Origin: an uncultured Aquimarina sp.
GTDB taxonomy: Bacteria > Bacteroidota > Bacteroidia > Flavobacteriales > Flavobacteriaceae
NCBI GenBank assembly: GCA_937958985.1
Contig: CALGLV010000006.1
Location: forward strand, 206,563 to 270,562
Reading direction: 5' to 3'
DNA: 64,000 bases
The notes beneath the pieces were generated by a model. That model searched no databases and was not told where the DNA came from. It saw nothing but the letters and a program-made list of their open reading frames with translations. This document shows positions 50,742 through 52,205 of this stretch, in pieces (within the stretch, counting starts at the first letter, position 1; the number at the start of each line of letters is the position of its first letter). The translations under genes were made by a program, and so were the position numbers.

Positions 50742-50849
50742 ATGTTAGACTTTTTAGACACGCTCTCTAGTGGCAAATTATTCCCTGCATTTGTATTAGT
50801 TTTGCTACTTATATTTATTATTAATCGAATTAGAAGTCGACGCCTATGA
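50742..50849 (+). CDS. Single-TM microprotein (35 aa), not in ORF track
   Basis: MLDFLDTLSSGKLFPAFVLVLLLIFIINRIRSRRL*; ATGA overlap with queD start at 50846. Confidence 0.6.
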   Translation: MLDFLDTLSSGKLFPAFVLVLLLIFIINRIRSRRL

Positions 50850-51298
50850 GCAATATTCGTATTACCAAACTATTTACCTTCGAAACCGGACACGCCTTAC
50901 ATGGTTATGACGGAAAATGCAAAAACGTGCACGGCCACAGTTACAAACTCGAAGTAACCGTAATTGGATCGCCAATTAACGACACCAATCACACCAAAAA
51001 CGGTATGGTTATTGACTTTGGAGACCTAAAAAAAATCGTTAACAAAGAAATTGTAGACGAATTTGACCATGCCACCGTGTTCAACAAAAACACGCCTCAT
51101 GTAGATTTAGCCACCGAAATGCAAAATCGAGGTCACAACGTAATATTGGTAAACTACCAACCTACCAGCGAAAATATGGTAATAGATTTTGCCGAAAAAA
51201 TTAGTATTAAGCTACCTTCGCATATAAAATTACACTCCTTAAAGCTACAGGAAACAGACACCTCTTTTGCACAGTGGTTTGCTAGTGATAATTTGTAA
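50846..51298 (+). CDS. queD: 6-carboxytetrahydropterin synthase / 6-pyruvoyl tetrahydropterin synthase family
   Basis: FETGHALHGYDGKCKNVHGHSYKLEV; VIDFGDLKK; EFDHATVFN; PTSENMV. Confidence 0.95.
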   Translation: MSNIRITKLFTFETGHALHGYDGKCKNVHGHSYKLEVTVIGSPINDTNHTKNGMVIDFGDLKKIVNKEIVDEFDHATVFNKNTPHVDLATEMQNRGHNVILVNYQPTSENMVIDFAEKISIKLPSHIKLHSLKLQETDTSFAQWFASDNL

Positions 51299-51303
51299 TA
51301 CTT

Positions 51304-51408
51304 GGGCGTTCCCCTTAAGGGTCGGGCTTTACGCTGTATCTTTTTTGTTGCGATTTCCGTTAGCACTACAATAGCAACAAAAAAGGATGCCGCTGCAATC
51401 CCTAACGC
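51304..51408. repeat. Structured intergenic element with nested inverted repeats
   Basis: Outer GCGTT(51306-51310)/AACGC(51404-51408), CCCTTAAGGG palindrome (51312-51321), 11-bp perfect stem ttttttgttgc(51341-51351)/gcaacaaaaaa(51374-51384). Confidence 0.6.
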
Positions 51409-51425
51409 AAAACAAAACTATACCA

Positions 51426-52205
51426 ATGAAAATTGATATTCCACAAGGAAAAAAAGTCTATTTTTCTTCTGACAATCATTTAGGAGCTCCTAACAAAATA
51501 GAAAGCAAAGCTAAAGAAGTAAAGTTTTTACGCTGGCTCGACAGCGTAAAAAAAGATGCCGCAGCTATTTTTCTTTTAGGCGATCTTTTCGACTTTTGGC
51601 ACGAATACAAAACAGTAGTCCCTAAAGGCTTTATTCGTGTTCTAGGGAAATTAGCCGAAATTTCTGATAGCGGAATTCCAATACACTTTTTCGTTGGCAA
51701 TCACGACTTATGGATGGATGGCTATTTCGAAGATGAACTAAACATCCCTGTATATCATAAACCTAAAGAATTTATTATAAACGGCACTTCTTTTTTTATA
51801 GGTCACGGCGATGGATTAGGCCCCAACGACAAAGGCTACAAACGAATGAAAAAAGTATTTACCAACCCATTAGCCAAATGGCTATTTAGGTGGATACATC
51901 CTGATATTGGTGTACGATTGGCTCAAAAACTTTCTACAGAAAATAAGTTAATTTCTGGTGATGACGATTTAATTTTTTTGGGAGAAGAAAACGAGTGGCT
52001 TGTGCAGTATTGCAAAAGAAAATTAAGCCAACAACACCGTGATCACTTTATATTTGGACACCGACACTTGCCTTTACAAATACCCTTAGAAAACAATGCC
52101 CTTTACACAAATTTAGGCGATTGGTGCAACCACTTTACCTATGGTGAATTTGATGGAAAAACTATGCTCTTAAAGCATTTTGAAAAACTTAGCGATATGC
52201 CGTAA
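51426..52205 (+). CDS. lpxH: UDP-2,3-diacylglucosamine diphosphatase (LpxH-like metallophosphoesterase)
   Basis: VYFSSDNHLGAP, LGDLFDFWHEYK, GNHDLWM, GHGDGLGPND, GHRHLP; listed upstream start 51387 lies in the repeat element. Confidence 0.88.
   Translation: MKIDIPQGKKVYFSSDNHLGAPNKIESKAKEVKFLRWLDSVKKDAAAIFLLGDLFDFWHEYKTVVPKGFIRVLGKLAEISDSGIPIHFFVGNHDLWMDGYFEDELNIPVYHKPKEFIINGTSFFIGHGDGLGPNDKGYKRMKKVFTNPLAKWLFRWIHPDIGVRLAQKLSTENKLISGDDDLIFLGEENEWLVQYCKRKLSQQHRDHFIFGHRHLPLQIPLENNALYTNLGDWCNHFTYGEFDGKTMLLKHFEKLSDMP

Follow-up and report, generated by a model that had tools for sequence, protein, structure and literature searches.

The window analyzed here, a single 64,000-nucleotide stretch of Aquimarina DNA, carries in the short gap between a queD-like gene and an lpxH-like gene a 105-bp block that is certainly one copy of the Flavo-1 family (Rfam RF01705). 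The queD-like product scores 89.1 bits against the QueD equivalog TIGR03367, whose cut-off is 89.25, and the best NCBIfam matches of the lpxH-like gene (UDP-2,3-diacylglucosamine diphosphatase type) lie under their cut-offs. The Rfam match, on the minus strand from 51413 to 51316, covers the full model (1–76) at 59.3 bits against a gathering cut-off of 42, with an E-value of 1e-11, or 2.2e-10 over the whole window. Constraint on the element falls on its minus strand, whereas queD and lpxH are read from the plus strand, and its parts are arranged as follows.

50846..51298, plus strand: queD-like gene, upstream of the element (PF01242, 105.5 bits)
51304..51408, minus strand: whole Flavo-1 element, 105 bp, three-way junction (Rfam RF01705, with the extent from a 58-copy alignment)
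51404..51408, minus strand: P1 5′ strand, GCGTT (alignment)
51374..51402, minus strand: P2 5′ side, in the order GGG, A, TT, internal loop GCA, GC, internal loop GGC, ATC, bulged C, TTTTTTGTTGC apical arm (Rfam model and covariation)
51352..51373, minus strand: P2 apical loop region, which differs among copies (alignment)
51324..51351, minus strand: P2 3′ side, in the order GCAACAAAAAA apical arm, GAT, internal loop ACA, GC, internal loop GTA, AA, G, CCC (Rfam model and covariation)
51312..51321, minus strand: P3, a small junction hairpin CCC-TTAA-GGG, variable and absent from some copies (copy comparison)
51306..51310, minus strand: P1 3′ strand, AACGC; a conserved CC tail comes next, at 51305–51304 (alignment)
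51426..52205, plus strand: lpxH-like gene, downstream of the element

A first-pass annotation had described a structured palindromic element at this place; the sequence is as it was quoted, and the range given coincides exactly with the full Flavo-1 element, although that annotation missed that the family is already catalogued in Rfam. The outer 5-bp pairing, the palindrome and the 11-bp hairpin that it read as a branched structure are all present and make up a three-way junction of P1, P2 and P3, with the perfect hairpin TTTTTTGTTGC/GCAACAAAAAA at 51384–51374/51351–51341 and the palindrome CCCTTAAGGG at 51321–51312 on the minus strand. The element does overlap open reading frames, as had been proposed, but two different frames had been merged: the longest lpxH frame (51387–52205, plus) is the one that opens MPLQSLTQN... 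and runs into the element, whereas the frame at 51154–51366 on the minus strand reads MLTEIATKK.... The true lpxH start is likely the ATG at 51426, and the extension that overlaps the element (51387–51425) is probably untranslated, which would make the longer N-terminus spurious. The block is an additional member of a known family; it is the reinterpretation of the family that is of interest.

First, is the structure real, and how far does it extend? The folding energy of the minus strand is only modestly unusual (z of −2.06 as RNA and −2.93 as DNA), so the case for structure rests on comparison. Copies were collected from the Aquimarina source genome and related genomes (161) and from one chromosome, G433 (46), and 58 copies of the same class were aligned by sequence only and then scored for a junction with a 5-bp P1, P2 and room for P3. 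Across these 58 copies, 99.2% of the pair cells hold standard pairs, as opposed to 38–59% when the partners are slid by one to three columns; both sides have changed in compensation in 11 of the 20 pairs, giving 116 such cells where shuffles give 26.6; and RNAalifold recovers the same fold from the alignment unaided, P1 included. The covariation of the arms, a check that the first-pass annotation had proposed, is therefore strong, and because of it the structure is not a product of chance. The 58-copy set was picked partly for a recognizable P1 and so favors that helix, but P1 pairing is also found in 112 copies parsed by sequence anchors with no choice based on P1, among which it occurs as GCGTT/AACGC, GCATT/AATGC, GCGTG/CACGC, GCGGT/ACCGC, GCGCT/AGCGC, GCGAT/ATCGC and further variants. 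Class-1 copies, the one at 51304–51408 among them, thus form a three-way junction of P1, P2 with two purine-rich internal loops, and an optional P3. The element shares with RF01705 its sequence, its P2 hairpin with two 3×3 internal loops and an apical stem, and its phylum; Rfam, however, files the family as a small RNA gene of 76 positions, in a model that leaves P1 and P3 unpaired, and the Flavo-1 structure is larger than that model, extending to the covarying P1 and the optional P3. A second Flavo-1 class closes with AGC/GCT and is common in G037, G050 and G433, so that element ends read either GCGTT/AACGCCC or TAGCC/AGCTCC.

Some copies harbor a further palindromic repeat, GAGC-N-GTCGAAG, inside the P2 apical loop or P3 (for example at loci L189, L275 and L282), and occurs 16 times in 27 kb of elements compared with 21 times in 1.88 Mb of mostly coding flanks. 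Beside the Flavo-1 copy that precedes an ilvE-like gene, a head-to-head GAGC/GTCGA palindrome pair is inserted in G006 and absent from G017 and G019 (L189 versus L279 and L030). By look alone this repeat resembles the CGTC-tagged palindromic repeats, but it is nested inside Flavo-1 loops and is not Flavo-1 itself.

Second, the copies are repeats scattered through intergenic DNA, each folding on one strand. The source genome (2.1 Mb, 80% complete) holds at least nine, its relatives hold 1–42 each, and the complete chromosome G433, from another genus of the family, holds at least 111; in all of these the copies are mostly intergenic. Matches occur in 58 of 396 Bacteroidota genomes spread across the phylum, and a genuine copy with its own P1 (GCGCC/GGCGC, 58.9 bits) lies in another phylum, on plasmid p74 of Leptospira biflexa. 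Similar blocks with variable arms stand between genes in many Flavobacteriales, as the first-pass annotation had stated for Flavobacteriaceae, and the element is neither single-copy nor devoid of homologues or covariation. Phages gave no Flavo-1 match with a single consensus query. From the copy number, the near-identical cores at different sites in G045, the variable occupancy of sites and the Leptospira plasmid copy, we infer that Flavo-1 is mobile. On p74 the copy (L383, 3995–4062) adjoins a gene for the exodeoxyribonuclease V gamma subunit.

Another recurrent position is the region upstream of rRNA operons. Flavo-1 lies some 0.6–1.1 kb upstream of 16S rRNA genes in three genera (L394 in the source genome, L324, L326 and L329 in G433, L203 in G020, L215 in G091 and L228 in G050), at a distance of 586 nt in the source genome and of 669 nt at all three G433 operons, and, wherever orientation was checked, antisense to the rRNA operon. 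In G433, the similarity among the rRNA operon copies stops at the element. The source genome also has three variant copies below the Rfam score, on contigs C48, C40 and C32 (L393–L395), which are near-identical to one another; since two of them stand at contig ends and the third is the one 586 nt upstream of the 16S gene, they probably mark copies of the rRNA operon.

Third, the history of individual sites bears on whether the element serves its neighbors. The queD–lpxH site is filled in four Aquimarina genomes (the source genome, G089, G058 and G007) and empty in the close relatives G076 and G022, where the two genes lie about 16 nt apart, as well as in several more distant genomes of the genus; on the LpxH tree this pattern needs two changes, and a single origin remains compatible with it. 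Because close relatives lack the element here, in all likelihood it does nothing specific for queD and lpxH. The same comparison weighs against an intrinsic transcription terminator at this junction. The short gap between the genes and the A/T runs of the hairpin would suit such a terminator, but relatives lack the element there, and on both strands the T-run lies on the 5′ arm and the A-run on the 3′ arm, so that no U-tract follows the hairpin; the proposal was rejected from the sequence and has next to no probability. The insertion-site polymorphism that the first-pass annotation suggested looking for is borne out to the extent that occupancy differs between species, but the filled and empty pairs, drawn from different species or genera, are too diverged to show an insertion boundary or a target duplication. 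One pairing, with G089 as a clean empty site for the G000:C26 copy, was dropped; that copy lies at a synteny breakpoint.

A different history is seen at the serS leader, where a sense-orientation copy, preceded by a conserved TAAATTTG box, is present in all 13 Aquimarina genomes examined, in most cases some 30 nt upstream of the start codon. Among these 13 orthologous copies both sides have changed in seven pairs while 99.6% of the cells remain paired, so the fold is conserved in place as well as among dispersed copies; therefore the structure has been maintained, or repeatedly re-copied, at this site over long times. Other recurrent sites lie before lepA and before a response-regulator-like gene, and no functional theme is apparent among the neighbor genes of the recurrent sites. 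Could Flavo-1 then be a cis-acting RNA of the neighboring mRNAs, that is, a leader, a stabilizer or an attenuator? The sense copies near the start codon in the serS and lepA leaders speak for this reading, but the neighbors share no common function, the relatives without a copy at queD–lpxH count against it, and antisense copies, to which the queD–lpxH element itself belongs, are as frequent as sense ones. When 99 sites were grouped by orthology, 28 were oriented with both neighbors and 42 against both, with 14 in divergent and 11 in convergent gaps; in G433 there were 17 sense, 16 antisense, 3 divergent and 10 convergent copies, gene starts and ends in both counts being simple ORF calls. Antisense copies are, moreover, equally conserved, as is evident from their structure (bit) scores, which in G433 equal those of sense copies. 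As a general account a cis-acting RNA is improbable; it may apply to a few co-opted copies, and the serS leader suggests itself as a good site for asking whether Flavo-1 has been co-opted locally as a leader RNA.

The mispairs show which strand is under constraint. If the fold were needed only in the neighbors' transcripts, antisense copies should favor the mispairs that become G·U in the transcript, and hence A·C over G·T on the Flavo-1 strand. Instead, G·T outnumbers A·C on that strand by 43:19 overall (p = 0.003) and by 14:3 in antisense copies (p = 0.013), counts that are small and partly non-independent. Since the G·T excess is found even in antisense copies, the constraint belongs to the Flavo-1 strand and is independent of the direction in which neighboring genes are transcribed. 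Two candidates then remain, single-stranded DNA and an independent RNA. The same count in antisense copies could serve as a simple general test of whether a "structured RNA" is constrained within its neighbors' transcripts.

The independent RNA is the main rival to a DNA-level reading: Flavo-1 would be an independently transcribed small RNA family, acting in trans or binding a protein, much as Rfam files it. Purine-rich 3×3 internal loops are common RNA motifs, and P2 has them; the covariation is strong and of the RNA type, and a strand-specific constraint independent of the neighboring genes is what such an RNA would produce. The family was also scored as a probable RNA that is not cis-regulatory (Weinberg et al., 2010; PMC2864571). 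However, few copies have a recognizable promoter of their own, a strict TAnnTTTG box occurring within 60 nt upstream in just 1 of 46 and 7 of 99 copies; at least 111 copies per genome would be odd for one small RNA; and in the Flavobacterium psychrophilum transcriptome Flavo-1 matches lie sense or antisense indistinctly, many of them outside transcribed regions (PMC9723704). In contrast to its filing in Rfam, Flavo-1 behaves as a dispersed repeat with no consistent promoter or orientation. Although G·T tolerance alone does not separate DNA from RNA, the rare promoters, the copy number and the F. psychrophilum transcriptome tilt the balance, so that DNA rather than RNA would be the working form and a small RNA is rather unlikely, if still to be taken seriously. 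No significant replication-strand bias was detected in G433 (p ~0.14), nor any by eye in G006, G020 and G050 with dnaA as a proxy for the origin.

Fourth, what would move such an element? The first-pass annotation had offered a mobile REP- or MITE-like family or a structured RNA family, with an associated RAYT/TnpA gene to be looked for; REP-like holds in a loose sense only, the MITE comparison is unsupported, and the search found no associated gene. Like the REP/REPIN repeats of RAYT transposases (subclass 2.6 in Bacteroidetes; Quentin et al., 2018; PMC6006769), Flavo-1 is intergenic, multi-copy and palindromic, folds as a single strand and persists for long; unlike them it is branched, about 65–150 bp long, and has neither inverted dimers nor a hairpin whose foot bears a GT[AG]G tag. 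A classical REP/REPIN mobilized by a RAYT of the same genome might look favored by this likeness and by a REP-associated transposase relative in the source genome (L011, cut by a contig end; NF047646 at 59 bits, cut-off 80). Yet most RAYT loci read by eye carry other palindromic repeats and none carries Flavo-1; 15 Y1 loci scanned with Rfam held no copy, and a copy occurs in 1 of 40 further Y1 loci, no more than genomic density predicts; three Flavo-1-rich genomes (G307, G291 and G034) have no Y1 match at all; and in G433 there are no inverted pairs or clusters, 11 neighboring copies lying within 5 kb where 10.7 are expected. The classical RAYT reading is largely refuted and we regard it as very improbable. 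The repeats at the RAYT loci (L059–L065, L069 and others) are their own, of GATAGCGCGGATTTGCAATCCGTGC and CCCGCTAGCGCGAGCGTC types distinct from Flavo-1, while other Y1 genes carry yet other repeats, with a Flavo-1-like 3′ half beside one of them (L053).

Two further comparisons are instructive. The CGTC-tagged palindromic repeats, also reported in Bacteroidetes and Spirochaetes, are likewise multi-copy palindromes with no known dedicated transposase, but they are simple hairpins of 20–40 bp (PMC3733652), and in Flavo-1 neither a CGTC nor a GT[AG]G tag marks the base of a short hairpin. Like MITEs, Flavo-1 is short, non-coding and dispersed, with partly inverted ends; a point of difference is that no related autonomous version, carrying a gene between its halves, turned up in the 2.2 Mb of loci examined. 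In those loci the 5′ core was matched 248 times and the 3′ core by a strict pattern in 213, and when the 31 distinct remaining 5′-core matches were read, the 3′ half was present in all except one clear truncation (L358). None of the literature searched links Flavo-1 to REP or mobile DNA.

Taken with the strand constraint, these comparisons lead us to give about even credence to Flavo-1 being a REP-like dispersed element that acts as a folded single strand, more likely of DNA than of RNA, and that is not a RAYT REP. The working form would be a single folded strand, most probably of DNA that is exposed in replication, repair or transcription; a trans-acting factor other than a local RAYT would recognize it, and may do so by the purine-rich internal loops, which are similar on the two sides of P2; and the element would spread as a non-autonomous REP-like repeat, be retained as a chromosomal binding site, or both. 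Against this reading stand the failed RAYT linkage and the fact that no transposase or binding protein was found, long-term retention and in-place covariation that exceed the needs of a purely selfish repeat, and the deeply conserved sense 5′ leader copies (serS, lepA), which suit an RNA role there.

More tentatively, and at clearly worse than even chances, Flavo-1 may represent, rather than a small-RNA family, a distinct class of bacterial interspersed element: a branched DNA repeat that folds as a single strand, has no RAYT and reaches 100 copies or more in some Bacteroidota, with its shape under selection at fixed sites, including those just upstream of rRNA operons, and putatively a factor-binding site. 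The family is currently counted as one of the most abundant bacterial "small RNA" families, and no function is stated for it (PMC9029176). If Flavo-1 does act at the DNA level, many of the RNA features annotated in Bacteroidota genomes are misleading, and there is a large class of chromosomal repeats whose enzyme or binding protein has yet to be found.
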